Shown here: piece after piece, positions 2,039-24,224 of the stretch
Layout of the letters: each line of letters starts with the position of its first letter
Numbering within the stretch: the first letter of the stretch is position 1
From: Cyanobium sp. AMD-g
GTDB lineage: Bacteria; Cyanobacteriota; Cyanobacteriia; PCC-6307; Cyanobiaceae
Reading direction: 5' to 3'
NCBI RefSeq assembly: GCF_024346395.1
Contig: NZ_JAGQCW010000002.1
Location: 496,001-560,000 of the forward strand
DNA: 64,000 nt
Translations under genes and position numbers: made by a program
Notes under the pieces: model-generated
Database searches by the model: none
Told to the model about the DNA's origin: nothing
What the model saw: only the letters and a program-made list of their open reading frames with translations

Positions 2039-2772
2039 AGAGAAAGGTTGCTGGTCCCCCTATGGCTGTCCGATCCCGTGCCCTGCTCCGAAACCCCTCC
2101 GTGGGCTCTTTGCGGCATTCCCCCTTCCCGTTGCTGGCCGCTTCTCTGCTGACCCTGGCCCCCCTGGTGGTGATCGAGCCGCCCCAGGCCCAGGCCCAGA
2201 GTGAGCTGCGTAAAAGCTTCCCGGGCAGGCGGGTGGGTGGAGGAACCCGGGGTGAATGCGCCAGTCGCCTTCTGGCCCACCTGGTGCCCTCCAGCAGCGT
2301 CTTCGCCCCCGGCAAGGCCCGTTTCCTGGGCGTGCTCGAAGGCCCCAGCGCTGCCCCCAGTCCCCTGGAGATCACCTTCCGACCGCTGAGCGATCGCGGC
2401 ACGGTGGATGGCTCGATCGCCTCGGGCCAACGCCGGGTGCTGCCGGCCTCCGCACCGGGTATCACCCTCCTGACCCTGCCCCCAGTGAAGGTGCCGACGA
2501 TGTGGGAGTCGAGCTACATCTGCCCCGGGGCTCCCGCCACCTCCACCCCGGCCGACCCGCTCAACTTCGTGGCTGCGGACTCGCCGCCGGCCCTGAGCCT
2601 GCTGGTGACGGAAGCCTCGAAGGAGGATGCGGCCGTGCAGGCTTCCCTGGCCAAACTGCAACGGTCCTGTGGTTCCAGCGTGCCCCGCGAGGAAGTGGGG
2701 GCCGCTTTCGGCCTGGCCGATCTGATCACGGCCCAGTGGCCGGAGCGGATTCCAGTGCGCTGTCCCGCCTGA
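2035..2772 (+). CDS. DUF928 family exported protein
   Basis: The 245-residue protein starts at the ATG inside the upstream stop (ATGA). It has a long signal-like N terminus (hydrophobic stretch around residues 30-48, then 'QAQAQ'), followed by the DUF928 hallmark 'GRRVGGGTRGEC'. The rest is a small domain with paired cysteines, including the late 'QRSCG' and the terminal 'RCPA'. DUF928 proteins are cyanobacterial, presumed periplasmic, of unknown function, and commonly neighbour CHAT and CHASE2 genes. The last 47 bases overlap the 3' end of the leftward cyclase gene. Confidence 0.8.
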   Translation: MKRKVAGPPMAVRSRALLRNPSVGSLRHSPFPLLAASLLTLAPLVVIEPPQAQAQSELRKSFPGRRVGGGTRGECASRLLAHLVPSSSVFAPGKARFLGVLEGPSAAPSPLEITFRPLSDRGTVDGSIASGQRRVLPASAPGITLLTLPPVKVPTMWESSYICPGAPATSTPADPLNFVAADSPPALSLLVTEASKEDAAVQASLAKLQRSCGSSVPREEVGAAFGLADLITAQWPERIPVRCPA

Positions 2773-4678
2773 GGCCACCCCGCAGTTCCCAGATGCGCAG
2801 GGGTTCGGTGCGCCCCTTGACATTGAGCTCCCCCCAGTCGAGCCACTCCAGCGGCAGACCCTTGGGCAGCAGATCCACCGTGCTGGAGGACACCAGCACC
2901 CGGCAGAGATTGCTCTGACGCTGCTTGTCGAGGCTCTCGAGCCGGGCGGCGCAGTTCACGGCATCGCCGATCACGGCGTACTCGAGCCGTTCGCTGCTGC
3001 CCATCGATCCCGCCAGGACGGCTCCGGAGTGGACCCCAACGCGCAGGCCCATGGCCGGCAGTCCCTCCTGCTCCAGCTCCTCATTGAGGCTGTCCACGGC
3101 CCGCTGAATCGCCAGGGCGGCATCGATGGCGGCCTTGGCATCCGCCTGCTCGCCACTGCTCAGGGGGGCGCCGAAGACCGCCAGCAGCCCGTCGCCGGTG
3201 AACTTGTTGACCATGCCGCCCCGGCGCGTGATCGCGGGGACGAACAGGGCCATGCCCCGATTCAGCCAGTCGAGCAGCTCACCGGGACTGAGCCGTTCCG
3301 ACACACTGGTGAATGAGCAGGTGTCCGACATCAACACCGTGACCGGCAGCTGGCGGCCCTCGAAGCGCCCGTCGCTGAGCAGCCCATCACGCTGATTCCA
3401 GAGCTGGCGGGCCACGGCCGGGGAGGTGGTCTGGCCGAGGAGCCGCTCGATCTGCTGGCGCTGCTTCTGGCTGGAGGCGCCCCGGCGCACCCAGGCCGCA
3501 CCGGCCATGGCGATCAGCCCGGTGAGCGGCAGGCTCAACCCGACCCAGACGAAGTTGTAGAGCAGCAGCACGGCCCCTCCGACCATCAGGGCGGCCACCA
3601 GCACCACCACGATCACGCTGCGCCGCAGCAGCCGGAAGGCTTCCCCCAGGACGATCCCCAGCACCACGGCCAGCACCTCGGCAACACGCTCCACCCAGCC
3701 CGGAAGCGTGCGCAGGCGCCGCGGGTCGCCGGCCACGGTGCGGTCCATCAGGGCGGCCAGGCGATGGGCATGGATTTCGACGCCTGGCACCAGCAGTTGC
3801 TTGGCCCCGAGGGCGGAGCGGGTCTGGGGCACGGGGAACAGGTCCCGCAGGCTCGGGGCGGTGCTGCCGATCAGCACGATGTGGCCGCGGATCTGGTCCC
3901 TGGGGATCGGCCGACGGCCGAGCACATCCTGGAGATTCCAGAGGTGGAAGCTGCCGAGCTGGTGGAACGACAGCATCTGCTGCATCCCGGCGGCATCCAG
4001 CTGGTCGTAGCCCCCGGAGGCCGGCTCCAGCCAGGGGCCTGGCTCGGTGCCCTTTTCGAGCCGCTGCCGCAGGCTCCTCTGACCCTTGCCCACCTCCAGC
4101 AGGCGCAGGGGCAGGGACACGGTGGCTTCGTCCTGGCCGGCCACATGGACCAGATCCCGGCGGATGACGCCATCGGCGTCCAGCACCAGGTCGTTGAAAC
4201 CGCGGCGATCGGCCGGCGTGCCCGGCACCGGGCCGATGGCTTCGGCCACGTTGAAGATCGAAACGAGGCGAGGGTTGGTCCGGAAGCGATCGCGCAGGCA
4301 GGCCTGGTCGGGGCCGACGCCCTGATCGCGGTAGATGTCGAGGCCGATCGCCACGGCCCCCTCGGCGCTCAGCCGGTCGATGGCTTCGCACAGCACCTTG
4401 TCGTCGATCGGGAACCCATAGGTAGCGAGGTCGGATTCATCGATGCCGATGATCGTGATCGGTTTGTCCGTGCCGGAGGGAGCCTGGCGCAGGCTGGTGA
4501 TCAGGTCATAGAGCAGCAGGTTGAGGGTTTCGTTGATGGGGCTGCGCTGCAGCGCCAGCAGCAGCAGCCCCGCCGCCGCGTAGGGCACGAGCGAGCGGAC
4601 GCCATCCCCCAGGTGGTTCAACCCCAGCCGTGCCAGCAGGGAACTCAGCGCTGATCCAGGCCCTTTTCTGCTGTCCAT
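2726..4678 (-). CDS. CHASE2-domain class III nucleotidyl cyclase (copy 1)
   Basis: This 650-residue membrane protein has an N-terminal transmembrane helix (about 28-45), an extracytoplasmic CHASE2 sensor domain (about 50-330), a block of C-terminal membrane helices (about 345-425) and a cytoplasmic class III cyclase domain (about 445-620). Both metal aspartates (D452 in 'LMSDTCSFTS', D496 in 'KFTGDG'), the base-contacting lysine K492 and the transition-state pair N575/R579 ('VNCAAR') are present. The residue seven before the Asn, normally Thr, Ser or Asp in ATP-using members, is Ala568, so substrate choice is less certain. The ATG at 4678 overlaps the stop of the upstream channel gene (ATGA), so the two are probably co-translated. 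It presumably makes cAMP in response to an unknown periplasmic signal. Confidence 0.93.
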   Translation of the reverse strand: MDSRKGPGSALSSLLARLGLNHLGDGVRSLVPYAAAGLLLLALQRSPINETLNLLLYDLITSLRQAPSGTDKPITIIGIDESDLATYGFPIDDKVLCEAIDRLSAEGAVAIGLDIYRDQGVGPDQACLRDRFRTNPRLVSIFNVAEAIGPVPGTPADRRGFNDLVLDADGVIRRDLVHVAGQDEATVSLPLRLLEVGKGQRSLRQRLEKGTEPGPWLEPASGGYDQLDAAGMQQMLSFHQLGSFHLWNLQDVLGRRPIPRDQIRGHIVLIGSTAPSLRDLFPVPQTRSALGAKQLLVPGVEIHAHRLAALMDRTVAGDPRRLRTLPGWVERVAEVLAVVLGIVLGEAFRLLRRSVIVVVLVAALMVGGAVLLLYNFVWVGLSLPLTGLIAMAGAAWVRRGASSQKQRQQIERLLGQTTSPAVARQLWNQRDGLLSDGRFEGRQLPVTVLMSDTCSFTSVSERLSPGELLDWLNRGMALFVPAITRRGGMVNKFTGDGLLAVFGAPLSSGEQADAKAAIDAALAIQRAVDSLNEELEQEGLPAMGLRVGVHSGAVLAGSMGSSERLEYAVIGDAVNCAARLESLDKQRQSNLCRVLVSSSTVDLLPKGLPLEWLDWGELNVKGRTEPLRIWELRGGLRRDSALESAPATGP

Positions 4679-6291
4679 CAGGTGCCCTTGAAGGCGAAGA
4701 AGAGGCGTTTCATCGTCTCCAGCAGAGCATTGGAGCGTTCGGTGTGCTGTTCGCGATCCAGGCTTTTCAGCTCCGCCTGCCGCTCCTGGACCATGGCGGC
4801 GAAACGCTCCAGCAGGTCGGGGTTCTCGTCCAGCAGGCCCTTGATGCTGTCCCGGTCCACCTCCAGCAGCAGGCATTCCTCGGTGGCCCGCACCGTGGCG
4901 CTGCGCGGCGCGTCGAGGAAGAGGGTCATCTCGCCGAACACCTCGCCGGGCCCCAGCTGGCGCACGGCCACAGTGTGGCCCGGCTCGATCTCCTTGAGGA
5001 TCTCCACGGTCCCCCGCAGGACGTGGAACATCGAGTGGCCCTCGGCGCCCTCCTGCACCACCGCCTCGCCGGGCCCGTAGGCGACCTGGTGGCTGCCCTC
5101 GACGAGGGTCTCGAGTTGCTCGCCGCTCAGGTCCGTGAAGATCCCCGCGCTGGCCAGGGTCTGGCAGCACTGCTGGCGGGAGGGGTGGCCGGGCGGCTGG
5201 TCCCTGTCCTGGGGGCGGCGCGGGCGCAACTCCCGCACGGGGAAGGGAATGCTCTGGCCCTCCCGGGCCAGGGCGTACCAGATCTGCTCCAGAAGATCAC
5301 TGCGCAGATCGCCGATGGCGCCATCCCCCAGATCCCGCTGCCACACCTGCAGCTCGTAGGCGATGGCACTGTCCTGGAACTCCTGGACCCGGATGCGGGC
5401 GGCCGGTTCGCGCAACACCTTGGGGTGCTGCAGCACGACCTTCTCGAGCAGGGCCCTGGCCTGGGCAGGCGGCAGTTCGTAGTCGAGGCCGACGCTGAAC
5501 CGGTTGCTGACGGCCCCGGACCGGCCCAGGTTGCGCAGCACCCGCGCCGTGACGAGGCTGTTGGGGACCACCACCAGCTGGCCGTCCATGTTGCGCAGCA
5601 TGGTGTCCCGCCAGCTGACCCGGACCACCACCCCGCGCACCCCCTGGTCGAGCTCAAGGAAGTCCCCTTCGGTGAAGTCGTCCCCCAGCTGCAGCTCCAG
5701 ACCCGCGAACAGGTCCTTGAGCGACTCCTGGGCCGCCAGGCCGATCACGGCAGTGAGCACGGCGGAGGTGGTCACCAGGCCCACCAGGTCCAGTCGCGCC
5801 GACTGCCGCACCAGCACCACCGTGGCCAGGGCGCCGCTGCCGAGCGTGAGCAGTTGCATCAACAGCTGCGGTGGAGGGCGCCACAGCCCCAGGTGGGCGG
5901 GCACCTCCAGGGCTGCCCAGAGGGCGATGAGGATGGCGGCGTAGGTGAGCAGCAGGTCGTCGGTGAGCAGCACCCACACCCGGTAGGCCGGCGGCAACCC
6001 CTGCAATGGCAGGGAACTCAGCAGCACCCAGGCGGCGATGGCCAGCAGCGGCAACCGCAGCGGCAGGGTCGGCAGGTGCCTGAGGCGTCCGAGTCGGGCC
6101 AGCACCAGCAGCCCGGCCGTGGCGGCCAGGGCGCTGATCCAGATCTGCAGCAGGGCCAAGGCGCTCGCTTCGACCGCCCCATCCTGCCGCTGATCCTGGC
6201 CGTCGGCCCCTGCAGAGAGCAGGCTGGAAGCAGCCGTTTCCCCCGTTGATGCCTTCGATCCGCCTGTACCCCTTCGTCCATCTGCTGGCAC
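4678..6291 (-). CDS. MscS-type channel with C-terminal cyclic-nucleotide-binding domain
   Basis: This protein of up to 537 residues has about five hydrophobic helices (residues 45-200), then an MscS core: a glycine/alanine-rich pore-helix region near 'AVIGLAAQESLKDLFAG', a beta domain with 'EGDFLELD' and the conserved 'VVVPNSLV'. A CNB domain follows (about 395-510), recognisable by 'GEVFGEMTLFLDAPRSATVRA', where the Glu and Arg correspond to the cyclic-nucleotide phosphate cassette. It resembles cyclic-nucleotide-gated members of the MscS superfamily. The GTG at 6291 overlaps the start of the divergent SIMPL gene; a TTG at 6159 is an alternative that would leave a 90-base divergent promoter region. 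Its stop overlaps the start of the CHASE2 cyclase, pairing a likely cAMP source with a likely cAMP effector. Confidence 0.9.
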   Translation of the reverse strand: MPADGRRGTGGSKASTGETAASSLLSAGADGQDQRQDGAVEASALALLQIWISALAATAGLLVLARLGRLRHLPTLPLRLPLLAIAAWVLLSSLPLQGLPPAYRVWVLLTDDLLLTYAAILIALWAALEVPAHLGLWRPPPQLLMQLLTLGSGALATVVLVRQSARLDLVGLVTTSAVLTAVIGLAAQESLKDLFAGLELQLGDDFTEGDFLELDQGVRGVVVRVSWRDTMLRNMDGQLVVVPNSLVTARVLRNLGRSGAVSNRFSVGLDYELPPAQARALLEKVVLQHPKVLREPAARIRVQEFQDSAIAYELQVWQRDLGDGAIGDLRSDLLEQIWYALAREGQSIPFPVRELRPRRPQDRDQPPGHPSRQQCCQTLASAGIFTDLSGEQLETLVEGSHQVAYGPGEAVVQEGAEGHSMFHVLRGTVEILKEIEPGHTVAVRQLGPGEVFGEMTLFLDAPRSATVRATEECLLLEVDRDSIKGLLDENPDLLERFAAMVQERQAELKSLDREQHTERSNALLETMKRLFFAFKGT

Positions 6292-6953: not shown

Positions 6954-7029
6954 TGCTTTTGAGGCGTGCGGATGCGTTTTGGGCCCCGCCGAGCAGAATG
7001 CAGCGATCCGGACCCGGAGCCTTGAGCGA

Positions 7030-7758: not shown

Positions 7759-7765
7759 GCCGCTG

Positions 7766-8848
7766 ATGCGACCCCACAGGCTTCTGTTGACGGCCCTGAC
7801 GGCGGCCCTGGCCTGGCCCGGCGGCAGCGTGGCGAGCCCGGTTGGATCGGCAGTCGTGCAGGAGATCCTTGATGGCCGGGAGCTGTACATCGAAAAGCGC
7901 CAGGCCCAGGTGCGGGAGAAGGCGGTCGTGCCCGAACTGGTCCGCACCCAGAACAGCCGCGGCCAGCTGGGCTTCGCCGGTGGTGCCGCCGGCCGCCTCA
8001 ACCGCTTCACCCAGCTGCGCCTCGGCAGCACCTGCTTCCTGCTCAGCAGCGGCCAGATCCTGGTGTCCGGTCCCCAGAACGGTTGCACCCGCTCCTCGCG
8101 GCTGAGCACCCGGGGAACCAACTACCTGGTCACCCTGCTCGACGGCGGCGATCAGGAGGTGGCGGTGCTGGAGGGCTCGGTGGAGCTCCAGCCCCTCGCC
8201 GATGGACGGCCCCTGCCTGGGGCGCCGATCCTCGTGGCGGGGGGCACCAGGGTGCGGCTCTCCAGCCAGGGGGATGTGCTCTGGCAGCGACCGCTCACGG
8301 CGGACGATTACGCCGCCATCCTCCGCGGCCCCCTGTTCCAGGACTTCACGGCGCCCCTGCCCGGCATGGCGGCGCTGGAGGCCTTCGTGCAGCGCCGCTT
8401 CCCCGGCGTGATCGCCGCCCCACCCAGGCCGGCGGTCAGCCGTGACCCCCTGGTGGAGATCATCAACCGCTACCGGGCCCAGGGCGGGCGCCCCGCCCTG
8501 CAACCCCTGCCGGCGCCCCTGGCCGCCGAGAATGCCGCCTATCTGGCCCCGGTGCTCGAGGGGGTGCTGGCCAGCCGCGACTGCGACCACGACCGCACCC
8601 TCTGGGGGGCGTTCCAGGAGCGCATGGCGGCGAAGGGCAGGCTCATGCCCACCAGTGAGGTGATCGCCTGCCCGATGCCGGCTGGCGCCTGGAACCCTGA
8701 GCTGATCGTGTCGCGCTGGATGGGCTCGCCCCTGCACACCCAGATCCTGATCAACCGTCCGAAGGCCCAGGCCATCGACTGCGTGCGCCTGGAGCGCTCC
8801 GGCCGGGCCGTCGCCATCTGCACGCTGTGGAGCCCGCTGTCGCGATGA
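7766..8848 (+). CDS. FecR-domain protein with C-terminal CAP-like domain
   Basis: The 360-residue protein has a signal peptide (about 1-25), a FecR domain nearly parallel to the preceding gene (shared 'AVVQEILDG', 'RTQNSRGQ', 'GAAGRLNRF', 'GCTRS'), and about 140 extra residues after position 225. The extension has features of a CAP/SCP domain: 'IINRYRAQGGRPAL' at its start, a 'CDHD' segment, 'MAAKGRL', a Glu in 'TSEVIAC', 'VSRWMGSPLHTQIL' (the usual W-x-x-S-x-x-H), and a final strand with Cys. It lacks some canonical residues, so the domain call is tentative. Its stop overlaps the start of the downstream CHASE2 cyclase (ATGA), implying coupled translation. Confidence 0.82.
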   Translation: MRPHRLLLTALTAALAWPGGSVASPVGSAVVQEILDGRELYIEKRQAQVREKAVVPELVRTQNSRGQLGFAGGAAGRLNRFTQLRLGSTCFLLSSGQILVSGPQNGCTRSSRLSTRGTNYLVTLLDGGDQEVAVLEGSVELQPLADGRPLPGAPILVAGGTRVRLSSQGDVLWQRPLTADDYAAILRGPLFQDFTAPLPGMAALEAFVQRRFPGVIAAPPRPAVSRDPLVEIINRYRAQGGRPALQPLPAPLAAENAAYLAPVLEGVLASRDCDHDRTLWGAFQERMAAKGRLMPTSEVIACPMPAGAWNPELIVSRWMGSPLHTQILINRPKAQAIDCVRLERSGRAVAICTLWSPLSR

Positions 8849-10728
8849 AGGCGCGACGCCGCACCTTCAGGGTCCTGGTGGTGGCTGTGCTGGCCTGGGT
8901 GGGGGTCAGTTCCGGCTGGCCCGGGCCCCGGATGCGGGTCTGGGAACGGGGGGTGGAGCAGCAACTGCTGCTGCTGCGTGGCCCGCGCCGGCCGCCGCCG
9001 AAGGTGGTGCTGGTCACGGTCGATGACGCCACCCTGCAGCAGGGCGACTGGTTCGAGGAGCAGGGCCGCATCCCGGAATGGGCCAGGGGCGTCGGCAGCC
9101 TGCCCTGGCCCCGGGCCACCTACGGGATGGTGGCGGAGAAGCTGCTTCAGGCCGGCGCCAAGGCGGTGGCTGTGAATGTGGTCTTTGAGGGGCCCAGCGG
9201 CAAGGGTGAGGGCGATGACGAGGCCCTGGAGCTGCGCTTGCGGCGTTACCCCGGCCGGGTCGCCCTGGCGGCGGAGATGCTCGAGTCCAACGACACCCAG
9301 GGGGCTGGCTCGCTCACCTTCGTGCGGCCGGAGCGCTTCCTGGCGGCCATCGGCGGCACCGGCGCCCTCGGGCTCACCAACATCCTCGCCGGTACCTCCA
9401 GCGAGCCCAGCCGCCACCCCGAGGCCTACGCCAGCGGCGTGCTCCCAGCCCGCGGCGCCGAGGGCCACAGCGCCCTCTCCTCCACCCTGCTGCGGCTGGG
9501 GGGCCAGCGGAGCCGCCAGGGCGACCGGGCCAGCGCGCTCAATTTCTATGGCCCGGAGGGCAGCTTCCAGCGCCTGCCGGCCTGGGAGGTGCTCGACCCC
9601 GCGCGCTGGCAGACCCATCCCCTGCGCAAGGACGTGAAGGGGGCCCTGGTGCTGCTCGGCCCGGTGGTCGCCCAGGGAACCGATGGCTACCCCACCCCCT
9701 TCGGACCCCTGTCGGGACTGGAGGTGCTGGCCACCGCCACCGCCAACTCGCTGCAGGGGGACGGGCTGCAGCCCTGGCCCCGCAGCGCGCCGGGACGGGC
9801 CCTGCTGGCCCTGCTGCCGCTGCTGCTGGTGCTGGCGGCGGCCCGCCGTTGGACCGACCTGCGCTGGCGCCTCACCCTTGTGGTTCTGGTGCTGGTCCTC
9901 CAGGGGGCTGTTGTCGCCGTGGCGCTGCAGCAGGCCAACCGCTGGCTGCCGCTGCTGGCGCCCGCCTCGGGCCTGGTCCTGCTGGGCCTGCTCTACGGGG
10001 GGGATGCCTACCTGCGGGAGGGGCAGGAGCGGCGCCGGCTGCGCCGCACCTTCGAGCGCTACGTGGCGCCCGGCGTGGTGGCGGAGATCCTCTCCGACCC
10101 GGAATCGGCCCAGGGCATCCTGCGCGGCCGCCTGCTCGAGGTGACCGTGCTGATGACCGACATCAAGGGCTTCACGGTGCTCACCAAGCAGCGCAGCGGC
10201 GAGGGCCAGAGCGAGTTGCACGTGCTCCAGCTCAACGAGTATCTGGGCGCCATGGTGGAGGTGGTGATGGCCCATGGCGGCACCGTCGACAAGTTCATCG
10301 GCGATGCGGTGATGGCGGTGTTCGGCTCACCGGTGAGCCGGGGGGTGGCCGAAGAGGCCAGCCAGGCGGTGCGCTGCGCCCTGGCCATGCGGGCGGCCCT
10401 GGCCGGCCTCAACGAGGACTGGGCGCGGCGGGGCATCGCCACGCTCGACAACGGCATCGGTCTGGCCAGCGGCCAGGTCATGGTGGGTCAGATCGGCAGT
10501 CCGCGCCGGATGGAGTTCACCGTGATCGGCGATACGGTGAACCTGTCGGCCCGGCTCGAATCGGCCACCCGGAATGTGGACGCGGCGGTGGTCTGCGACG
10601 CCCAGACCGCCAGCCTGATCACGGCCGACCCCGGGCTCGCCGCCCGTTCCCTGGGACCCCAGGCGGTGAAGAGCCTCGGGGAGGTGGAGATCTTCACCGT
10701 CGCCCTGGCGGATCAGGCTTCCAGGTAG
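8845..10728 (+). CDS. CHASE2-domain adenylate cyclase (copy 2)
   Basis: The 627-residue protein has an N-terminal membrane anchor (about 9-25), a CHASE2 domain (about 50-310), about three membrane helices (about 320-395) and a class III cyclase domain (about 430-610). The catalytic set is complete: metal Asp439 ('MTDIKGFT') and Asp487 ('KFIGDAV'), adenine-recognising Lys483 and Thr559, and transition-state Asn566 and Arg570 ('VNLSAR'). An ATP-specific activity is therefore well supported. The ATG lies in the stop codon of the FecR-CAP gene. The 3' end overlaps convergent speA by 16 bases. Confidence 0.95.
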   Translation: MKARRRTFRVLVVAVLAWVGVSSGWPGPRMRVWERGVEQQLLLLRGPRRPPPKVVLVTVDDATLQQGDWFEEQGRIPEWARGVGSLPWPRATYGMVAEKLLQAGAKAVAVNVVFEGPSGKGEGDDEALELRLRRYPGRVALAAEMLESNDTQGAGSLTFVRPERFLAAIGGTGALGLTNILAGTSSEPSRHPEAYASGVLPARGAEGHSALSSTLLRLGGQRSRQGDRASALNFYGPEGSFQRLPAWEVLDPARWQTHPLRKDVKGALVLLGPVVAQGTDGYPTPFGPLSGLEVLATATANSLQGDGLQPWPRSAPGRALLALLPLLLVLAAARRWTDLRWRLTLVVLVLVLQGAVVAVALQQANRWLPLLAPASGLVLLGLLYGGDAYLREGQERRRLRRTFERYVAPGVVAEILSDPESAQGILRGRLLEVTVLMTDIKGFTVLTKQRSGEGQSELHVLQLNEYLGAMVEVVMAHGGTVDKFIGDAVMAVFGSPVSRGVAEEASQAVRCALAMRAALAGLNEDWARRGIATLDNGIGLASGQVMVGQIGSPRRMEFTVIGDTVNLSARLESATRNVDAAVVCDAQTASLITADPGLAARSLGPQAVKSLGEVEIFTVALADQASR

Positions 10729-12725
10729 GTCGTCTGTTCCAGGCTGGCCTTCAGGTGGGCCATCAGGCGTCGGGCGTCGCTGATCGCCAGGTCGCCCCGG
10801 CCGATCGCCTGCTCGCTGGCCAGCCGCAGGCGCTCCAGCAGCAGGTCGGGGTCGTGCTCCATCGCCTCGAGCACCTCGGCGTTGGTGTTGCCCCGCACCA
10901 CGTGGTCGACCCGGTAGCCGCCGCCGGCTGCCAGCCGGATGTGCACGGCGTTGGTGCTGCCGAACAGGTTGTGCAGGTTGCCCATCACCTCCTGGTAAGC
11001 GCCGCCGAGGAACAGCCCGATCCAGTAAGGCTCGCCGGGCCGCAGGCTGTGGAGTTCCAGCAGCGGCTTGACCTGGCCCCGGTCGATGAAGCGGGCGATC
11101 TTGCCGTCGGAATCGCAGGTGAGGTCGGCGAAGCTGCCGAGCCGGGTGGGGCGCTCGTCGAGCCGGTGGATCGGCAGCACCGGGAACAGCTGGTCGATCG
11201 CCCAGGTGTCCGGCGCCGAGCGGAACACCGAGAGGTTGGCGTAGTAGGTGCCGGCGAGGGCCGCCGGCAGGGCCTGCAGCTCCTGGGGGATCACGGTGCC
11301 GGCGGGCAGACCTTCGAGCTGGCGGGCGATCGCCTGGCAGCTGGCCCAGGTGAGGCGCTCGGCCGTAGCCCGTTCCGGCAGGCTCAGGTAGCCGAGCCGG
11401 AAGGCGTTGAGGGCGTCCTCCTTGAACTTGAGGGCGTCGTTCCAAGCCTCCTGCAGGCGCTCCACCACCGCCCGCTCATCGGTGTCGTCCCCCTCGAGGC
11501 CCCCCTCGGCGGCGATCGCCGTGATCAGGGCGTGGGTGTCGCGCAGGTTGCGCAGGATCAGCGCCTCCCCCTCGGCCGGCGGCGGCAGCGTTTCGCTGTG
11601 GCCGCCGGCCCCGAGCACGTCGAACACCAGCACGCTGAAGTGGCTGGCCAGCGCGCGGCCGCTCTCGCTCACCAGCGTGGGCGGGCGGATGCCGTGGGGC
11701 TCGCAGCACTCGCGGATGGTGGCGACGACGTCGTTGGCGTAGTTCTGCAGCGAGTAGTTGGTGGAGGCGGCGGTGGCGGTGCGGCTGCCGTCGTAGTCGA
11801 TGCCCAGGCCGCCGCCCACGTCGAGGAAGCCCATCGGCGCCCCCAGACGGGTGAGCTCGGCATAGATCTGCCCCGCCTCCTGCAGGGCGTCCTTGAGGAC
11901 GGCGATGTCGTTGATCTGGCTGCCGATGTGGAAGTGCAGCAGGCGCAGGTCGTCGAGCAGGCCCGCCTCCCGCAGGCGTTCCACCGTGGTGAGCACGTCG
12001 GGGATCGAGAGGCCGAACTTGGCCCGCTCGCCCACCGAGCTGCCCCAGCGGCCGGTGCTGCGGGCCGAGAGCCTGGCGCGGATGCCGATGAACGGGGCCC
12101 CGCCCAGGGCGCTGCTGGCGGCGATGATCCGCTCCACCTCATCGGCCTGTTCGATCACCACCACCGGCTGGCGCCCCAGGCGCCGGGCCAGGATCGCCGT
12201 CTCGATGTAGCGCCGGTCCTTGTAGCCGTTGCAGATCAGCAGGGCGTCGGGATCGTCCAGCAGGGACAGGGCGATCAGCAGCTCGGCCTTGCTGCCCGCC
12301 TCCAGGCCGAAATGCCAGCGGCGGCCGCTCTCCACCAGCTGCTCCACCACGTGGCGCTGCTGGTTGCACTTCACCGGGAACACCCCCTGGTAGCGGCCGT
12401 TGTAGCCGTACTGGGCGATGGCCCGCTCGAAGGCGCCGTGGAGACGCTCGAGCCGGTCCTCAAGGATGTCGTCGAAGCGGATCAGCAGCGGCAGGGACAG
12501 GTCGCGGCCCTGCAGCTCCCGCACCAGCTCCACCAGATCGAGGGAGCCGCCGCGGTCACCGCGGGGCTGCACGATCACCTGGCCCCGGGCGCCCACCCCG
12601 AAGTAGGGCTCACCCCAGCGGTCGAGCCCGTAGAGGGCCGCCCCGTCGGCGGCGCTCCAGGCGTCGGCCCGCCCGGTAGGGACGGAGGGCACGCCCGGGG
12701 GGCTGGTCGGTTCGGCGAACACCAT
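10713..12725 (-). CDS. speA: Biosynthetic arginine decarboxylase
   Basis: The 670-residue length and sequence match the biosynthetic arginine decarboxylase family, which converts arginine to agmatine and CO2 in polyamine synthesis. The PLP lysine is K119 in 'FPVKCNQQRH'; the glycine-rich phosphate-binding segment 'FLDVGGGLGIDYDGS' and the 'HFHIGSQ' motif are visible. It is a cytoplasmic PLP enzyme of alanine-racemase-type barrel fold, with Mg as a usual cofactor. Start is an ATG at 12725. It is read leftward and appears to be a single gene between the cyclase (convergent) and the FUSC gene, which is 17 bases upstream and could share its transcript. Confidence 0.97.
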   Translation of the reverse strand: MVFAEPTSPPGVPSVPTGRADAWSAADGAALYGLDRWGEPYFGVGARGQVIVQPRGDRGGSLDLVELVRELQGRDLSLPLLIRFDDILEDRLERLHGAFERAIAQYGYNGRYQGVFPVKCNQQRHVVEQLVESGRRWHFGLEAGSKAELLIALSLLDDPDALLICNGYKDRRYIETAILARRLGRQPVVVIEQADEVERIIAASSALGGAPFIGIRARLSARSTGRWGSSVGERAKFGLSIPDVLTTVERLREAGLLDDLRLLHFHIGSQINDIAVLKDALQEAGQIYAELTRLGAPMGFLDVGGGLGIDYDGSRTATAASTNYSLQNYANDVVATIRECCEPHGIRPPTLVSESGRALASHFSVLVFDVLGAGGHSETLPPPAEGEALILRNLRDTHALITAIAAEGGLEGDDTDERAVVERLQEAWNDALKFKEDALNAFRLGYLSLPERATAERLTWASCQAIARQLEGLPAGTVIPQELQALPAALAGTYYANLSVFRSAPDTWAIDQLFPVLPIHRLDERPTRLGSFADLTCDSDGKIARFIDRGQVKPLLELHSLRPGEPYWIGLFLGGAYQEVMGNLHNLFGSTNAVHIRLAAGGGYRVDHVVRGNTNAEVLEAMEHDPDLLLERLRLASEQAIGRGDLAISDARRLMAHLKASLEQTTYLEA

Positions 12726-12742
12726 CGCAGCCTTGGTTTGGC

Positions 12743-14899
12743 TCAGGCCTCAGGGGGGCAATCTAGGCGGGGGGCCGCGGCCGGTCCGCCCTGCCAGTCG
12801 TTCCAGGCGGCGACGGCGTCGTGCAGTCCGATGACCGGATCGACGAGCCGCCCCAGCTGCCGGGCCAGGGGGTCGCCGCCGTTGTCCGGCCGGGGCCGCT
12901 CCGGCGGGGCCGGCGGCCGGCTGTGCTGCTCAAGCGCCGTGGCCAGGGCCGCCAGCGATGCCGGCAGCCGCTCCCGCAGCGCCCCGAAACCGGTCGGCAG
13001 GGGCCGCCCGTCGCGGCGGGGATCGGCGCGGCCCAGCACCACCGCGGCGTCGATCAGCCGCTGGCTGTGCAGCAGGAAGGCCATCAGGGGCACCGCCATC
13101 GCCCGGTGGGCGGGCTTCTCGCTCAGGAAGCGCTGGATGGAGACATGGGCGTTGCCCATCTCCAGGCGCACCTCGGCTGGGGTGGCCAGCGGCCCGGGGG
13201 CGGCCAAAGGCGGCTTCTGCAGCCGGTCGAGCACCTGCTGCACGAAGCGGGCGTTGCCGCGCAGGCTGGCCGCCAGCCGGGCCGGCAGCTGGGACCGTTC
13301 CCAGCGCGGCAGCACCAGGTGGATGGCGGCCAGGGCCAGGGCGGCACCGATCAGGGTGTTGGCGATCCGCCACAGAGCCAGGTTCCAGTCGCCGGGATGG
13401 TCGATGTCCTTGTAGAGGACGATCCAGGGGGTGAGGAAGAAGACGAACAGGCCGTAGTTCACCGGCAGCACCGCCATCATCACGAGGGTGAGGGGCACCA
13501 GAAGCAGCACCAGCGTCAGCGGGTGGGGGAAGCAGGTGGCCAGCACGATGGCCAGGATCCCCCCCAGCACGGTGCCCAGCACCCTCTGGCCGGTCCGCGA
13601 CAGGCTCTCCCCCGCCGAGGGCCGCAGGATCACCGAGACCGTCAGGGTGATCCAGTAGCCGATCGGCAGGGCGAACAGGGTGTAGACGGCCACGGCGGCC
13701 GCCGAGGCCACGCCGAAGCGCAGCCCGTGGCGGAACAGGCTCGATTCCAGGGTCAGGTTCGCCCGCAGGGTCGCCCAGCCCTGGGCCAGGGCGGCACGTG
13801 CCCCGGCGCCAGGAGATGTCGCCGGCGCCTGGGCCGGGGTCAGCGCCGTCATGGGGATGGCCTCGCCGGCCCCGTCCAGGGCGGTGATCCAGTGGGCCTG
13901 GTTCGCCTGAATCTGCCGGTAGGCGTCGCGCAGGGCCGGCTCGAGGCCCTCGATCTCAGCGGCGATCCCCTCCAGCTCCTGCCTGAGCTCCTGCAGGGCG
14001 GGCAGGGGGCCCCGCCCCAGCAGCGCCTGCTCCAGCTGCAGCAGGGCGTCGACGCAGCGGCCGTTGAGCGCCTGCAGGCGCCGGTGCACGGGGGACGTCA
14101 CCGGCGCCTGCAGCGCCGCCAGCAGGTCCCCCAGGGCCGCGCTGGTCACGAACAGGGCGTCGGTGGTCTCGATCAGGCGGGTGAAGGCCCCGTCGGCGGG
14201 GCTGGCTCCCAGCCGGCCGCTGCGGGTGTCCGCCAGGGTGGCCCGGGCGCTGCCGAGGGCGTCGCGCACCCTGAGCTTTTCGGTGAAGAGTTGCGCCTCC
14301 GCGGCCGGCGGGCCGCCATCGGCGGGGCAGGCCAGACGGTGGTACCGGGCGACGGCGCGATGGGCAGCGGCCAGGGCGATCCGCACGGGCCGGTAGGGCC
14401 GCAGCGGCCAGAGGGCGACCGCCAGCAGGGTGGCCCAGCCCCCGCCGGCCAGGTAGAGGAGCGACCAGGCCAGGGCCTTGGCCGGATCGGGATCGCTGAC
14501 GTTGATGCCGATCAGGAAGCACCAGGCCGTCACCAGCCCGATCAGGGCTCCGCTGTTGCCGTAGAGGGCGAGCATCCCGCAGCCCAGTGCCACGGCGGCC
14601 ATCGCCGGCACGCACAGCCAGGGCCAGGCCGCCAGGCCGATGCCGCCGCCGAGGGCCAGGGCGCCGAGCAGGGAGGCGAGCCCCATCGCCGTGGCCTTGG
14701 AGCGGTAGGCCCCGCCCGTGTCGGCCATGTTCACGTACAGCCCCCCGAGGGCCATCCAGATCAGGGCGGGTTCGTGCAGCTGGGCGGCGGCCAGCAGCGG
14801 CGGCACGCTGGCCAGGGTGGTGCGCAGGCCGAGCCGGAGATTGAGCCCGGCCCCCGGCGCCGCCAGCCAGGTGGCGCGCCCAGTTGCTGCTCCGGGCAT
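12743..14899 (-). CDS. FUSC-family inner-membrane protein
   Basis: The 718-residue protein has two hydrophobic blocks (about 20-180 and 390-540) separated and followed by soluble segments, the layout of the FUSC/YccS/aromatic-acid exporter family. The second block carries the family pattern '[22 protein letters not shown]', 'GILAIVLA' and '[15 protein letters not shown]'. Members are thought to export or extrude small aromatic or other compounds, but the substrate here cannot be read. Start is an ATG at 14899; the divergent neighbour is ndk. The soluble C-terminal tail from about residue 560 contains several Pro/Ala-rich stretches. Confidence 0.85.
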
Positions 14900-15006
14900 C
14901 CGCGGCGGCCGGGGTGGCCCCGATCGTATGGTGCCCGGCGGTCAAGGGTTGCTTGCCAAGCGGCAGCCCCAGCGCGGACGATGGCCGGAACACTTCTCCC
15001 TTCCCC

Positions 15007-15465
15007 ATGGCCACCGAACGCACCTTCCTCGCCATCAAGCCCGACGGGGTGCAGCGGGGCCTGGTGGGCGAGATCCTCGGCCGCTTCGAGCGCAAAGGCT
15101 TTAAGCTGGTCGGCCTCAAACAGCTGGTGCCCAGCCGGGAACTGGCCGAAAGCCATTACGGTGTGCACCGCGAGCGCCCCTTCTTCGCCGGCCTGGTGGC
15201 GTTCATCACCAGCGGGCCTGTGGTGGCGATGGTGTGGGAAGGCGACGGCGTGATCGCCAGCGCCCGCAAGCTGATCGGCGCCACCAAGCCCCTGGAGGCC
15301 GAACCCGGCACCATCCGCGGCGACCTGGCGATGAACATCGGCCGCAACGTCATCCACGGTTCCGATGCGCCGGAGACGGCCGAGTTCGAGATCGGCCTCT
15401 GGTTCCAGCCCTCCGAGCTGTGTGCGTGGACGCCTGCCGACCAGGTGTGGCGGGTCGAGCCCTGA
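15007..15465 (+). CDS. ndk: Nucleoside diphosphate kinase
   Basis: The 152-residue protein is a standard nucleoside diphosphate kinase, transferring the gamma phosphate of ATP to other NDPs through a phosphohistidine. The active-site His is H117 in '[12 protein letters not shown]', and the N terminus '[16 protein letters not shown]' is typical. The ATG at 15007 gives the normal family length. It lies 34 bases before a FecR gene on the same strand and diverges from the FUSC gene. Confidence 0.98.
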
Positions 15466-15499
15466 GTGGCCATCCTGGGGACCGTCGGATCCCCGGGCC

Positions 15500-16186
15500 A
15501 TGCTGCTGCGCAGGAGCCTCCGGCCTTCCAGGCCGTTGAAGCTGGCGGCCGTGGCCGTGCTCGTCGCCGGCCTGGCCGTCGTCCTGCCCGGTGTCACGGC
15601 CGCTCCCCGGGTGCCCCGGGTGGTGGATGTGCCATCCCGTCCGGCGTTCGTGACGCCACCGGCGGCATCGGAGCGGCCGGCCCTGGTGGGCCAGGTCCTC
15701 GGTCCTTCCACCGTGCTGCGCACCGAAAACCCCGGCCGGCTTCAGGTCCTGCTGGCCGATGGGCGCAGCTTCCGGCTGGGGGGGAACGCCCAACTGCGGA
15801 TCGAGCCGACCCTGCTCGACCTGCTCCGCGGCCGGATCATCGCCTGGATCGATCCGGGGTCGAAGGGCACCATGCCGCTGCGGATCCGCACCCGGGTGGG
15901 CACCGCCTCGATCCAGGGCACCACGGTTTTCATCGAGGCTACCGCCGACAAGGTGCTGTTCCTGAGCTGGGAGGGGCAGGTGGAGGTGCGCGCCGCTGAC
16001 GGCACCTCCTACCGGCTGACCAGTGGCCAGCGCCTGGAGGCCACGCCCCAGGGCTGGAAGGGTCCCCACCGCATGGACGCGGCGGAAGTGCGGAAGCGGC
16101 GGCGGAGCAGCGAGCTGCTAAATGGCTTCCAGGCGCCGATGCAGACCCTGCCGGTGATCGAGCGCGAACTGGGCCTCACCCCCTGA
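15500..16186 (+). CDS. FecR-domain exported protein (copy 3)
   Basis: The 228-residue protein begins with a basic stretch and one hydrophobic segment (about 14-34), a signal peptide or anchor, followed by a FecR domain: 'LVGQVLG', 'LLADGRSFRLGGNAQLRIE', 'LLRGRIIAWIDPG', 'TRVGTASIQGTTVFIEA' and 'GQVEVRAADG'. This copy is more like canonical FecR than the two tandem copies near 7-9 kb and is not a recent duplicate of them. The ATG at 15500 removes an unlikely Arg/Ser-rich extension. Its stop overlaps the start of the next CHASE2 cyclase (TGATG), repeating the FecR-then-cyclase arrangement. Confidence 0.85.
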   Translation: MLLRRSLRPSRPLKLAAVAVLVAGLAVVLPGVTAAPRVPRVVDVPSRPAFVTPPAASERPALVGQVLGPSTVLRTENPGRLQVLLADGRSFRLGGNAQLRIEPTLLDLLRGRIIAWIDPGSKGTMPLRIRTRVGTASIQGTTVFIEATADKVLFLSWEGQVEVRAADGTSYRLTSGQRLEATPQGWKGPHRMDAAEVRKRRRSSELLNGFQAPMQTLPVIERELGLTP

Positions 16187-18027
16187 TGCCCCCCTGGCCT
16201 GGCCTGGGGCGCCGGCTCTGGTGGCTGGCCCTGGCGCTTCCCCTGCTGGCGGGTCTCGACCGGGCGCCCCTTACCCCCCTGGGCCAGGGGCCGCGGCTGC
16301 TTGACGACCAGCTGCTGCAGGCCTTCTTCCTGCTGCGGGGGCCGCGTCCCGCCCCCCCCGATCCGTTGATCCTGGCCATCGACGCCGATTCCCTGGAGCT
16401 GGGGGAACTGCTGGCCCCGGCCGAACGCCAGGCGTCGCCGCTGTGGCGCCAGATGGGCCCCTGGCCCTGGCCCCGTGCCCTGCAGGCCCAACTGGCGGCC
16501 CATGTGCTGGAGCAGGGGGCCGCCCAGGTGCTGTTCAACATCGAGTACAGCCAGCCCAGCCGCTACGGCCCCGCCGATGACCGGGCCTTCGCCACCACCC
16601 TCGCCCCCTGGCGCCAGCGGGTGCACCTGGCCGTCCATTACGACGTTCGCCAGGAGGGGGGTCTGGAGCAGAGCCGGCTGCGGCTGCCGATCCACCAGCT
16701 GGGTGCCCCCGGTCTGACCACCCTGCTCCAGTCCCCCCGGGGGGTGGTGGAGGCGGTGCCGGGGCAGGACTGGATCCGCTCCCGGCTGGGCACGTTCCCG
16801 CCCCCCCTGCCGCGGCCGATGGCCTTTCTGGCCCGTCCGGCGCCGCCGCCGCCGGCGCCGATGGGGCTCGACTATCCCGGCCCCGCCGGCAGCATGCCGC
16901 GGGTGCCGGCCTGGAGGCTGCTGGAGGTGCCGGTCTCCACCTGGCGGGGCCGCATTGTGCTGATCGGCGTCACGGCCCCGGGTCTGGGGGACCTGCAGGA
17001 GACCCCCGTGGGGCCCATGGCCGGCACGGAGATCCAGGCGGTGGCCCTGGCCAACGTGCTCCAGGGCCGGGGGCTGGGGCGGCTGCCCCTGGCGGGGGAC
17101 GGGCTGCTGCTGCTGGGCTGGGGCGCCCTGGCGGGGCTGCTGCTGCGGCGCCCCGCCAGCGCCGGCGGCACCCTGCAGCTGGCGCTGGCCCTGGCGGGGA
17201 CGGTGCTGGTGGCTGGCTGGGCGGGGTGGGCCCTGGCCCTGCTGCGCCTGCCGCTGGCGGCCCTGCTGCTGGCCCCCGTCGCAGGGGGCGGGGTGCGGGC
17301 CGTGGGCCAGGGGCTGGCGGAGAGCCGGGAGCGGGCCTACCTGCACCAGGTGCTGAGCCGGCGCGTCTCCCCCACCCTGCTGCGCGACATCCTGCGCAGC
17401 CCCGGGCCGGTGTGGAACCAGGCGGTGGGCAGCCGGGCGCGCTGCGCCGTGCTGTTCAGCGACCTGGTGGGGTTCACGCCCCTGAGTGCCGTGCTGGCGC
17501 CCGCCGAGCTGTTCGCCCTGCTCAACCGCTACTTCGAGGCCATGGCCGGGGCGGTGCTGGAGCAGGAGGGCCTGCTCGACAAGTTCATCGGTGACGCGGT
17601 GATGGCGGAGTTCGGGGTGCCCCGCAGCCGGGGGGATGCCCAGGAGGCCCGGGCCGCGGTGCGGGCCGCCCTGGCGATGCAGGAGCGGCTGGAGGCCCTG
17701 AACGCCGAGCTGGCCGCGGCGGGCGCCCCACCGCTGCGGCACGGGATCGGGCTCCATTTCGGCGAGGTGATCGCCGGCAACCTGGGCTCCTCCCAGCGCC
17801 TGGAGTTCACCGTCGTGGGGGCCAGCGTCAACGTGACCAGCCGCCTGGAGGGCCTCACGCGCCTGTTCCCCGAGCACCCGATCCTGATCAGCGGCGATCT
17901 GCTGGCGCTGCTGCCGGGGGAGCTGGAGGTGCTGCCGCTGGGCAGCCACGCCCTCAAGGGCTGGCCCATGCCCCTGGAGGTGTATGCGCTCCAGGGGCTG
18001 CGGCCGGCGGCGGCCGGGCCTGGCTAG
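16186..18027 (+). CDS. CHASE2-domain class III nucleotidyl cyclase (copy 3)
   Basis: The 613-residue protein has an N-terminal anchor, a CHASE2 domain (about 35-295), about three membrane helices (about 300-370) and a cyclase domain (about 415-590). Metal ligands D426 ('LFSDLVGFTPLS') and D470 ('KFIGDAVMAEFG'), base-contacting K466 and T542, and transition-state N549 and R553 ('VNVTSR') are all present. The usual Gly-Asp three residues before the Asn is Gly-Ala546 ('VVGASVN'), an uncommon change at a conserved but not directly catalytic site. Start ATG shares one base with the upstream FecR stop. The 3' end overlaps convergent thiO by four bases. Confidence 0.93.
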   Translation: MPPWPGLGRRLWWLALALPLLAGLDRAPLTPLGQGPRLLDDQLLQAFFLLRGPRPAPPDPLILAIDADSLELGELLAPAERQASPLWRQMGPWPWPRALQAQLAAHVLEQGAAQVLFNIEYSQPSRYGPADDRAFATTLAPWRQRVHLAVHYDVRQEGGLEQSRLRLPIHQLGAPGLTTLLQSPRGVVEAVPGQDWIRSRLGTFPPPLPRPMAFLARPAPPPPAPMGLDYPGPAGSMPRVPAWRLLEVPVSTWRGRIVLIGVTAPGLGDLQETPVGPMAGTEIQAVALANVLQGRGLGRLPLAGDGLLLLGWGALAGLLLRRPASAGGTLQLALALAGTVLVAGWAGWALALLRLPLAALLLAPVAGGGVRAVGQGLAESRERAYLHQVLSRRVSPTLLRDILRSPGPVWNQAVGSRARCAVLFSDLVGFTPLSAVLAPAELFALLNRYFEAMAGAVLEQEGLLDKFIGDAVMAEFGVPRSRGDAQEARAAVRAALAMQERLEALNAELAAAGAPPLRHGIGLHFGEVIAGNLGSSQRLEFTVVGASVNVTSRLEGLTRLFPEHPILISGDLLALLPGELEVLPLGSHALKGWPMPLEVYALQGLRPAAAGPG

Positions 18028-21509: not shown

Positions 21510-24224
21510 ATGCAAGTCTTCAGCTCCTGGTCCGAGCAACAGGCCCGCCTCACCCGCTGGGTGCTGCTGCTGGGCTGGCTGGGGCTGATCGTCAGCCTGT
21601 TGCTTCCCGGCGTCGATCCCTGGCCGTTCGAGCTGGATCGCTGCGGCCCCCTGATGGAGTGCCACAGCCGGGAGGGCAACCAGATCTTCTGGGGCCTGGT
21701 GGTGCCCAGCGGTCTGCTGATCCTGGTGGCGCTCAGCCATGAGGTCTGGCGCCGCATCTGCCCGCTGGCCTTCCTCTCCCAGCTGTTCCGCGCCCTCCGC
21801 TGGCAGCGCACCGTCCCCGGCAAGGGCGGCCGCCGCGACGTGGTGAAGATCGAGGCGGACTCCTGGCTCGGACAGCATCACGTGCAGCTGCAGTGGAGCC
21901 TCTTCATCGCCGGCCTCAGCCTGCGGCTGCTGGTGGTGAACAGCAGCCCCCTGGGACTGGGCCTGTTCCTGGCGCTCACGGTGGCGGCGGCCCTGGCGGT
22001 GGGCTGGGCCTACGGCGGCAAGGCCTGGTGCCAGTACTTCTGCCCGATGGCGCCGGTGCAGGCCGTGGTCACCGGCCCCCGCAGCCTGCTGGGCAGCCCC
22101 GCCCACCTGGAGACCACCTCCCGCATCACCCAGTCGATGTGCCGCACCATCGGCGAGAAGGGCAAGCTGCAGAGCGCCTGCGTGGCCTGCCAGGCCCCCT
22201 GCATCGACATCGACTCCGAGCGGGCCTACTGGCAGACCTTCAGCGGCAAGAAGGGTCTGGCCTGGGCCTGGGCCTCCTATCCCGGCCTGGTGCTGGCCTT
22301 CTTTCTGCTGATCCGCGCCGCGGGGCCTGGCGGCATCGACTACCTGCGCAGCGGCCTGTGGGCCTACGACGCCCGCGCCGTCGATCAGATCGCCCAGCCC
22401 CTGGTGCTGGGCGGCTGGAACACCCTGCTGCCCCGATGGTTCACCATGCCCGCCCTGCTGGTGCTGGGCGGTGTCCTCTCGGTGGCCCTGTTCGGGGCTC
22501 TGGAACGCTGGCTGCGATCCGGCCTCGCCGGGCTGCCGGCCGAGCGGGCCGCGGCCGTGGCCGGCCATCGCACCCGCCTGGCCGCGACCTTCCTGGCGGT
22601 GAACATCTTCTTCTGGTTCGCCGATCCCTCGCTCGGCCTCCTCGGCCCGAGGGGCGGGCAGCTGATCCGCTCCCTGGTGCTGGTCATCAGCGGCATGTGG
22701 CTCTACCGGGGCTGGTCCCGGGACAAGGCCACCTACACCCGCGAGAGCACCAGCGCCAGCCTGCGCAAGCAGCTGGAGAAGCTGGTGCCCGAAATGGGGG
22801 ATCTGCTGGACGGGCGCTCCCTGGCGGAGCTCAGCCCGGGGGAGGTGTTCACCCTGGCCAAGGTGCTGCCCAGCCAGATCAGCCAGACCAAGCGCGGGAT
22901 CTACCGCGAGGTGCTCTCCGACCTGTTCGGCAGCGGCCGGCTCGACCGCGCCGCCGCTCTGGTGCAGCTGGAGGAGCTGCGCCAGTCCCTCGACCTCAAG
23001 GAGGAGGACCACCACGCCGCCGTGCGCGAGCTGGCGGTGAGCGACCCCCGCATCCTGCAGCTCGACCATCGCCAGCGGGAGATCCGCAGCCTGCGCCAGG
23101 AGGCCGCCGCCGAAGCGATCGAGGATCTGCTCGAGACCACCGGCCTCGGCGACCTGAGCACGGCCCTGGCCGACGGTGACCACGGCGATCGGCTGGAGCG
23201 GATCCGCCAGGAGTACGCGCTCGATGAGGCCAGCTGGTCGGAGCTGCTGGCCACCTTCGGTCCCGTGTCGAGCTTCGCCCGCGAGCGGGCCGAGGAGCAG
23301 CTGCAGCAGGTCCGGGACAGGCTCGCGGCCCGCCAGGCCCTGGCGCAGGCCGCCGCCGGCGAGCCCCTGCTGCGGCCGCTGCTGCCGGTGATCGACCGCC
23401 AGCTGGTCAGCCTGTTCGTCACCGTCGCGCCCTCCCTGCAGCCCTTCGCCGCCGAGGACCCCCTGCTGGAACGCTTCCACGGGCTGCTCCCCCATGTCCC
23501 GGAAGGGGTGCTCACCCAGCTGCGGCGCCAGGACCGGGAACGGTGGGCCCCGGCCAGCGCAGGGGTCCCCGCCCCCCTCGACCCGCTCCCCGATCCGGCG
23601 GACGTGCTCGATGGACTGTGGCGGGACCCCGATCCGGACACCGCCCTGTGGGCCCTGTGGGTGCAGGATCAGCGGGATCCGGCGCGGGCGGCGGCCCTGC
23701 GGCGGGAGCCGAGGGTGGGTCTGCCCAGCAGCGCGGCCCTCGAGAGGCTGCGGTCCGGGGAGGGGCTCGCCCTGGGCGGGCGCCTCCGCCGGCTCCTGGA
23801 GGTGCCGCTGATGGCGGGACTGTCGCCGGCGGCCTTGATCAACATGCTGCACTGGGGCGAGGAGCGGCAGCTGCAGAACGGCGAGGTGCTGTTCTCGGTC
23901 GGTGATACCCCCGACACCGTGGCGATCCTGCTGGAGGGCCGCTGCGAGGTGCGGCGCCCCTCGGCCAGCGACGGCGGGCTCGAGGCGATGGCCCGGATCC
24001 ACAGCGGCGAACCGATCGGAGAGGTGTCCTTCCTGGTGGACCATCCCCGCCGCGCTGCGGTGCGGGCCATCGACGGACCCGCCACGGTACTGGTGTTCGA
24101 GAGTTCGGAGTTCGAACAGCTGCTGCAGCAGTCCTCGGAGTTCAACCGGGGCCTGCTGCACACCCTCGCCCTGAGGCTCGAGGACTCCTACGGCAAGCTG
24201 GGCAGCACCAACGTGCCCCGCTGA
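21510..24224 (+). CDS. Polytopic Fe-S protein with C-terminal cyclic-nucleotide-binding domain
   Basis: The 904-residue protein has an N-terminal membrane half (several helices, about residues 15-400) containing NapH/NosR-like cysteine motifs: 'RRICPLAF' (C84), 'WCQYFCP' (C174, C178) and 'CVACQAPC' (C224, C227, C231), which could bind one or more 4Fe-4S clusters. A soluble helical region rich in Leu, Glu and Arg follows (about 415-760), then a CNB domain (about 770-890) with 'GEPIGEVSFLVDHPRRAAVRA' as its phosphate-binding cassette. It may pass electrons across the membrane under cyclic-nucleotide control; that is inference. The ATG at 21510 sits just before the first hydrophobic helix. Downstream argJ follows after four bases. 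Confidence 0.85.
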   Translation: MQVFSSWSEQQARLTRWVLLLGWLGLIVSLLLPGVDPWPFELDRCGPLMECHSREGNQIFWGLVVPSGLLILVALSHEVWRRICPLAFLSQLFRALRWQRTVPGKGGRRDVVKIEADSWLGQHHVQLQWSLFIAGLSLRLLVVNSSPLGLGLFLALTVAAALAVGWAYGGKAWCQYFCPMAPVQAVVTGPRSLLGSPAHLETTSRITQSMCRTIGEKGKLQSACVACQAPCIDIDSERAYWQTFSGKKGLAWAWASYPGLVLAFFLLIRAAGPGGIDYLRSGLWAYDARAVDQIAQPLVLGGWNTLLPRWFTMPALLVLGGVLSVALFGALERWLRSGLAGLPAERAAAVAGHRTRLAATFLAVNIFFWFADPSLGLLGPRGGQLIRSLVLVISGMWLYRGWSRDKATYTRESTSASLRKQLEKLVPEMGDLLDGRSLAELSPGEVFTLAKVLPSQISQTKRGIYREVLSDLFGSGRLDRAAALVQLEELRQSLDLKEEDHHAAVRELAVSDPRILQLDHRQREIRSLRQEAAAEAIEDLLETTGLGDLSTALADGDHGDRLERIRQEYALDEASWSELLATFGPVSSFARERAEEQLQQVRDRLAARQALAQAAAGEPLLRPLLPVIDRQLVSLFVTVAPSLQPFAAEDPLLERFHGLLPHVPEGVLTQLRRQDRERWAPASAGVPAPLDPLPDPADVLDGLWRDPDPDTALWALWVQDQRDPARAAALRREPRVGLPSSAALERLRSGEGLALGGRLRRLLEVPLMAGLSPAALINMLHWGEERQLQNGEVLFSVGDTPDTVAILLEGRCEVRRPSASDGGLEAMARIHSGEPIGEVSFLVDHPRRAAVRAIDGPATVLVFESSEFEQLLQQSSEFNRGLLHTLALRLEDSYGKLGSTNVPR

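Follow-up and report, generated by a model that had tools for sequence, protein, structure and literature searches.

Can a second messenger set the flow of electrons through a membrane protein directly? The question is raised by a gene in the 64 000-nucleotide stretch of Cyanobium sp. AMD-g DNA analysed here (the window), which the first-pass annotation had read as a NapH/NosR-like membrane Fe-S half joined by a long helical middle to a cyclic nucleotide-binding (CNB) domain. The open reading frame, Pfam matches, an AlphaFold model and cysteine conservation bear out the overall layout, a membrane Fe-S-type half, a helical middle and a CNB domain on a single 904-residue chain, with the model placing eight long hydrophobic helices in residues 9–402, a helical arm up to about residue 755 and then a CNB fold (Table 1). 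A gene-calling artefact is ruled out for 21510–24224 by purifying selection (dN/dS 0.14–0.38 over the whole gene) and by the conserved start, the ATG at 21510 agreeing with that of homologues. Chance would fall far short of producing these features. No NCBIfam family scored above its cut-off for the 904-aa protein.

Table 1. Coordinates of the Fe-S/CNB gene, its parts and the neighbouring signalling genes in the window
Feature	Position	Strand	Basis
CHASE2 class III cyclase 1 (listed ORF start; the real one probably lies further downstream)	2726..5170	-	
MscS-type channel with CNB domain, the genome's strongest CNB match	4678..6291	-	CNB match
CHASE2 class III cyclase 2	8827..10728	+	
FecR-domain gene, before CHASE2 class III cyclase 3	15365-16186		
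CHASE2 class III cyclase 3, 3.5 kb upstream of the Fe-S/CNB gene	16186..18027	+	
Fe-S/CNB family gene, clade A member (904 aa + stop)	21510..24224	+	Open reading frame without internal stop
Membrane core, residues 1-402, eight predicted TM helices	21510..22715	+	Hydrophobicity and loop charges; AlphaFold core model, pLDDT 80, pTM 0.81
Cys45 and Cys51, predicted extracytoplasmic loop 1	21642..21662	+	Conserved in cyanobacteria, lost in Rhizobiaceae
Cys84-Pro85 (HExxRRxCP), cytoplasmic loop 2 (predicted), not CX3CP (position 80 = Trp)	21759..21764	+	Family alignment, motif count
Cys174-x3-Cys178-Pro (WCQYFCP), single CX3CP motif, Fer4_5 match	22029..22046	+	Pfam, conservation, motif count
Cys211-x12-Cys224-x2-Cys227-x3-Cys231, candidate [4Fe-4S] site, cytoplasmic loop 4 (predicted)	22140..22202	+	Conservation, motif count
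Helical arm, residues 403-755	22716..23774	+	AlphaFold; first part conserved family-wide
Cyclic nucleotide-binding domain, residues 786-874	23865..24131	+	Pfam cNMP_binding (PF00027)
Phosphate-binding cassette GEVSFLVDHPRRAAVRA (Glu838, Ser840, Arg847)	24018..24068	+	Cassette alignment

The gene is not a one-off fusion, a reading ruled out by the presence of the family in 159 of the 390 sampled genomes of the class and also on Rhizobiaceae plasmids. On sequence grounds, it is a member of a large, modular, unnamed family rather than an architecture unique to the window gene. A tree of the cores, built by a quick method with a midpoint root and containing some long branches, separates clade A (picocyanobacteria, including the window protein), clade B (about 940 aa, in most cyanobacteria, with a second copy in the window genome at G000:C8:60073-62814), clade C (1060–1264 aa, with FHA and CNB domains), clade D (about 570 aa, without a CNB domain) and the Rhizobiaceae plasmid forms, in which the core occurs with an FHA domain or by itself.

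Nine of the protein's cysteines lie in the core (45, 51 and 84; 174 and 178; 211, 224, 227 and 231), and Cys812 lies in the CNB domain. The Fe-S reading was to fall if homologues did not keep these cysteines, and across 140 family cores they are conserved: seven core cysteines are nearly invariant, with no substitution and gaps only at Cys174, 178, 211, 224, 227 and 231 and a single substitution at Cys84, and loss of Cys45/Cys51 is almost confined to Rhizobiaceae. Because Lys and Arg are abundant in loops 2, 4 and 6 (on average 9.7, 7.0 and 3.7 such residues across the family) and in the segment that follows TM8, the positive-inside rule predicts that Cys84, Cys174/178, Cys211–231 and the C-terminus with its CNB domain face the cytoplasm, with Cys45/51 on the opposite side. 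The core fold gives no independent support, because no significant solved relative was found: a Foldseek search of the PDB with the core model returned nothing significant (best E 1.1), and VIA-align scores stayed below Z = 5, the best local matches being PCI-type and TerB-like helical proteins at residues 410–526. The missing PDB match is no demonstration of a new fold. AlphaFold confidence is low at the loop with Cys211–Cys231, a point against the redox reading proposed below.

Two CX3CP motifs mark the membrane module common to NapH and NosR, both of which also carry two C-terminal ferredoxin-type [4Fe-4S] motifs; RdhC has the two CX3CP motifs together with an FMN motif (PMC5928378). Members of the present family have exactly one CX3CP motif (142 of 147), the first being replaced by WxxxCP through a Trp at position 80 in 135 of 140 cores. 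The CX2CX2CX3C ferredoxin motif was absent from all 147 members; in place of two such motifs, 143 of the 147 have one copy of C-x(8-20)-CxxCxxxC, and the covalent FMN motif [ST]G[AS]Tx[ST] of NosR/RdhC was found in only two. These counts rule out true NapH/NosR/CcoG membership. What survives of the term NapH/NosR-like, with the second CX3CP and the two ferredoxin motifs missing, is a remote local resemblance: Fer4_5 matches residues 153–190 marginally (E = 1.5e-4, 22.1 bits against a cut-off of 22), and profile comparison with Escherichia coli NapH covers 34 columns only, in the region of the second CX3CP (probability 43%, E = 2.5e-4). Remote kinship with NapH/NosR/CcoG via Fer4_5 is possible, and the family protein may work like a NapH-type conductor, though not classed as NapH. 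It resembles NapH, NosR and RdhC (PceC) in its multi-TM core, its CX3CP motif and its putative role in electron transfer, but the NapH module consists of four TM helices, whereas the family core has eight and is followed by a C-terminal helical arm and a CNB or FHA domain.

The C-terminal domain falls within the cyclic nucleotide-binding superfamily by its match to cNMP_binding (PF00027; E = 5.5e-14, 52.4 bits against a gathering cut-off of 27.5), and its fold aligns with the CNB domains of CRP, PKG and PKA at VIA-align Z of about 15–16 (up to 15.9, 2.8 Å over 141 residues, for GlxR-cAMP). Its cassette is of the cAMP type, with Glu838 as the ribose residue, Arg847 as the cyclic-phosphate residue and a small Ser840 at the position of PKA Ala202. 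The clade B cassette, LDELEVLTHSxSENTIVA, has no Arg; the clade B paralog in the same genome (L031:8032-10950, minus strand), with DELQVLTHSASESTIVA, has Gln at the Glu position, where most cyanobacterial clade B members read DELEVL. Across distinct CNB sequences, positions 840/847 combine Glu or Gln without Arg in 82, Glu or Gln with Arg in 0, another residue with Arg in 35 and neither in 5, counts that come from related sequences and so do not represent 122 independent events.

Trypanosomatid PKA differs at the positions of PKA Ala202 and Arg209 and binds nucleosides instead of cAMP (PMC10959531). Its regulatory subunit resembles the clade B paralog of the window genome, with Glu/Gln at the Ala202 position and Arg209 lost, whereas the window protein retains the cAMP-type pair Ser840/Arg847; the best per-domain PDB match of the clade B CNB domain is kinetoplastid PKAR. 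Because of these Ala202- and Arg209-equivalent positions, a cAMP-type CNB domain is predicted for the window protein and not for its widespread clade B paralog. In most family members, cAMP binding has probably been lost from the CNB domain, and nucleoside binding by clade B is suggested as a lead only.

Four class III cyclases and 18 CNB matches were found in the window genome, whose only CHASE2 proteins are the three cyclases 3.5–19 kb upstream of the Fe-S/CNB gene. In 11 of 16 genomes, no more than 12 kb separates the clade A gene from a cyclase, against an expectation of 0.7–4.5% per genome; for the clade B paralog, the count is 0 of 15. The position of the clade A gene within the cyclase/MscS-CNB island varies (coaE/argJ, speA/ndk-fecR-cyclase, or near the MscS-CNB gene). 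Among loci for which 4.5 kb or more of flanking sequence is available on each side, a cyclase lies within 5 kb in 13 of 20 with the cassette Arg (clade A 7/13, clade C 6/7) and in 1 of 49 for CNB members without it (Fisher 2.5e-8, a value that ignores relatedness and reflects about five separate placements). The clade C cyclase is a divergent neighbour at 203–612 bp and carries a Tll0287-type c-heme domain (CXXCH).

The first-pass annotation had guessed at a link with the CHASE2 cyclases and suggested phyletic profiling as a check. The link holds as gene neighbourhood and fails as phyletic co-occurrence: many relatives have cyclases without the gene, no cyclase was detected in two genomes with the gene, G421 and G282, and strict co-occurrence was dropped. 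In Synechococcus RCC307, a broken cassette goes with no detected cyclase, in favour of control by cAMP. Other cases count against it: G282 keeps an intact cassette with its Arg, and no class III cyclase was detected there; in G292 and G400 the cassette is broken and cyclases are nearby; and the CNB domain is gone from some clade A relatives. The proposed tie to the cyclic-nucleotide level stands as a prediction, drawn from the intact cassette (GE...R) and the neighbouring cyclases.

Chemical-signal control of electron flow is probable, because an Fe-S-type core and a cAMP receptor part are joined in one protein and cyclases are adjacent. The specific proposal, whose chances we regard as evenly balanced, is a membrane redox protein set by cAMP and made up of an 8-TM cysteine core, a helical arm and a cAMP-type CNB domain. 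To judge from ligand conservation, Cys211/224/227/231 would hold a [4Fe-4S] cluster on the cytoplasmic side; together with Cys84 and Cys174/178, this cluster would accept electrons from a cytoplasmic donor, either ferredoxin or a reductase, the donor in other clades being presumably the FAD/2Fe-2S reductase encoded next door. From there, electrons would enter or cross the membrane, with a quinone or the Cys45/Cys51 pair on the far side as acceptor. Binding of cAMP from the neighbouring CHASE2 cyclases to the CNB domain would be relayed by the helical arm to the core and so gate it; in other clades, the same control position would be taken by an FHA domain, a kinase/FHA pair or a nucleoside-type CNB domain.

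The electron-transfer part of this proposal draws mainly on the reductase genes, which encode FAD, NAD(P) and 2Fe-2S domains and adjoin the core gene (4–302 bp) in clade C (Nostoc), clade D, Pseudanabaena and the Rhizobiaceae plasmids. NqrF, Hcr and oxygenase reductases have the same set of FAD_binding_6, NAD_binding_1 and Fer2 but, unlike them, the cyanobacterial neighbour has an N-terminal FHA domain; in Rhizobiaceae, it is the membrane protein that carries the FHA domain. Clade D has a Ser/Thr kinase directly upstream of the core gene, the Nostoc locus a CHASE2 kinase and a Cu/Zn superoxide dismutase downstream, and the Rhizobiaceae locus a cytochrome c peroxidase and a two-component pair. 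No FAD/2Fe-2S NAD(P)H reductase partner was found in the window genome, which counts against the proposal, and no conserved operon partner was found for clades A and B.

Much of this setting could also belong to a redox or NO sensor, in which the Fe-S core would sense redox state or a gas, the CNB and FHA domains would integrate other signals or dock partners, and no bulk electron flow would occur. The single candidate cluster motif, fewer than in NapH/NosR, is consistent with such a role, as are the attached or adjacent modules of signalling type (FHA, CNB, Ser/Thr kinase, cyclase) and the c-heme domain of the clade C cyclases, since Tll0287-type domains fused to signalling modules are reported to bind NO and to have NO-sensor properties (PMC12889525, a 2026 preprint). 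A dedicated FAD/2Fe-2S NAD(P)H reductase adjoining the gene in several clades, however, points to electron supply, and the cytochrome c peroxidase of the Rhizobiaceae island to electron use. CNB domains, moreover, usually act as inputs, not outputs. We consider a sensor of this kind unlikely.

A CcoG- or NosR-like assembly or maturation factor, supplying electrons once, under cAMP control, for the maturation of a partner's metal centre or disulphide, strikes us as distinctly improbable. The weak Fer4_5 and CcoG-like matches would fit it, as would the extracytoplasmic Cys45/Cys51 pair, nearly invariant in cyanobacteria, but neither clade A nor clade B has a conserved metalloenzyme neighbour, and the window protein scores 9.9 bits with the CcoG profile TIGR02745, far under its cut-off of 316.7. 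The likeness to CcoG/RdxA/FixG is a weak local match near the CX3CP motif, with size and domain set differing. Least probable is that the window CNB domain is a decaying relic without nucleotide binding and that the core alone matters: several clade A relatives have a broken CNB domain or none at all, and this part evolves faster than the core (dN/dS 0.44–0.60 against 0.29 at ∼72% protein identity), but its dN/dS is still below 1, Glu838 and Arg847 are retained in the window protein and most of clade A, and cyclase genes adjoin the Arg-containing members.

The cAMP-set redox protein may be one case of a wider arrangement, signalling-gated membrane electron transfer with a single conserved Fe-S core and interchangeable inputs, an extension that we offer tentatively and that may well prove too broad. 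The inputs would be cAMP (in the window clade and some of clade C, where dedicated cyclases adjoin, some with an NO-binding-type c-heme domain), phospho-threonine (an FHA domain with a Ser/Thr kinase and an NAD(P)H reductase that itself bears FHA) and perhaps free nucleosides (clade B, with its trypanosome-PKA-like cassette). A membrane domain with a C-terminal CNB regulator is likewise found in SLC9C1, CNG/HCN and MscS-CNB (bCNG) channels, and SLC9C1 headed the full-length Foldseek list, with a match that lies in the CNB domain (TM-score over the full length, 0.12); the membrane part of the family differs from theirs in its cysteines, and no channel or exchanger fold was found in it. Our search of the open-access literature found no described Fe-S/CNB or FHA/Fe-S protein of the same type; slr0593, annotated as a 'cAMP binding membrane protein' (PMC3516471), was considered as a counterpart by annotation alone. 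We found no characterised protein that puts electron flow under chemical-signal control in this form.

If the proposal is correct, a second messenger acts directly on a membrane redox protein and not on transcription, so that a cAMP signal (light, redox, possibly NO) could reach electron flow quickly, bypassing transcription. Cyclases and CNB proteins are numerous in cyanobacteria and, to our knowledge, few cAMP targets there are understood beyond CRP-type regulators. The family would also be a natural experiment, one core with a cAMP-type, nucleoside-type, FHA-type or no control module, the module type being predictable from neighbouring genes and from two almost perfectly covarying cassette positions.

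Several gene arrangements were observed alongside these results. Positions 2726–18027 of the window, with three CHASE2 cyclases, the MscS-CNB channel and two FecR-domain proteins, form a compact cAMP island. In two relatives, G008 and G003, the copy of the gene between coaE and argJ is degraded, and an intact copy that lacks the CNB domain lies elsewhere (L061:6829-8065, L064:5862-6899). At L164, L170, L197, L198 and L202–L205, the divergent neighbour of a cAMP-type clade C gene is a class III cyclase with a Tll0287-type c-heme domain (CXXCH). The clade D operon, kept in the 11 loci examined, consists of a WD40 Ser/Thr kinase, the Fe-S membrane protein and the FHA-FAD-2Fe-2S reductase (L182:5444-10794, L179:7953-13069), and a plasmid island of Agrobacterium and Rhizobium etli comprises a response regulator, a histidine kinase, cytochrome c peroxidase, the FHA-fused Fe-S protein and the FAD/2Fe-2S reductase (L175:8537-14810, L176:8450-15075). 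In several picocyanobacteria, a gene resembling PEP-utilising or phosphohistidine proteins, as judged by eye, lies directly 3' of the clade B gene (L031:6334-8028, minus strand; also L032, L035, L036 and L048).
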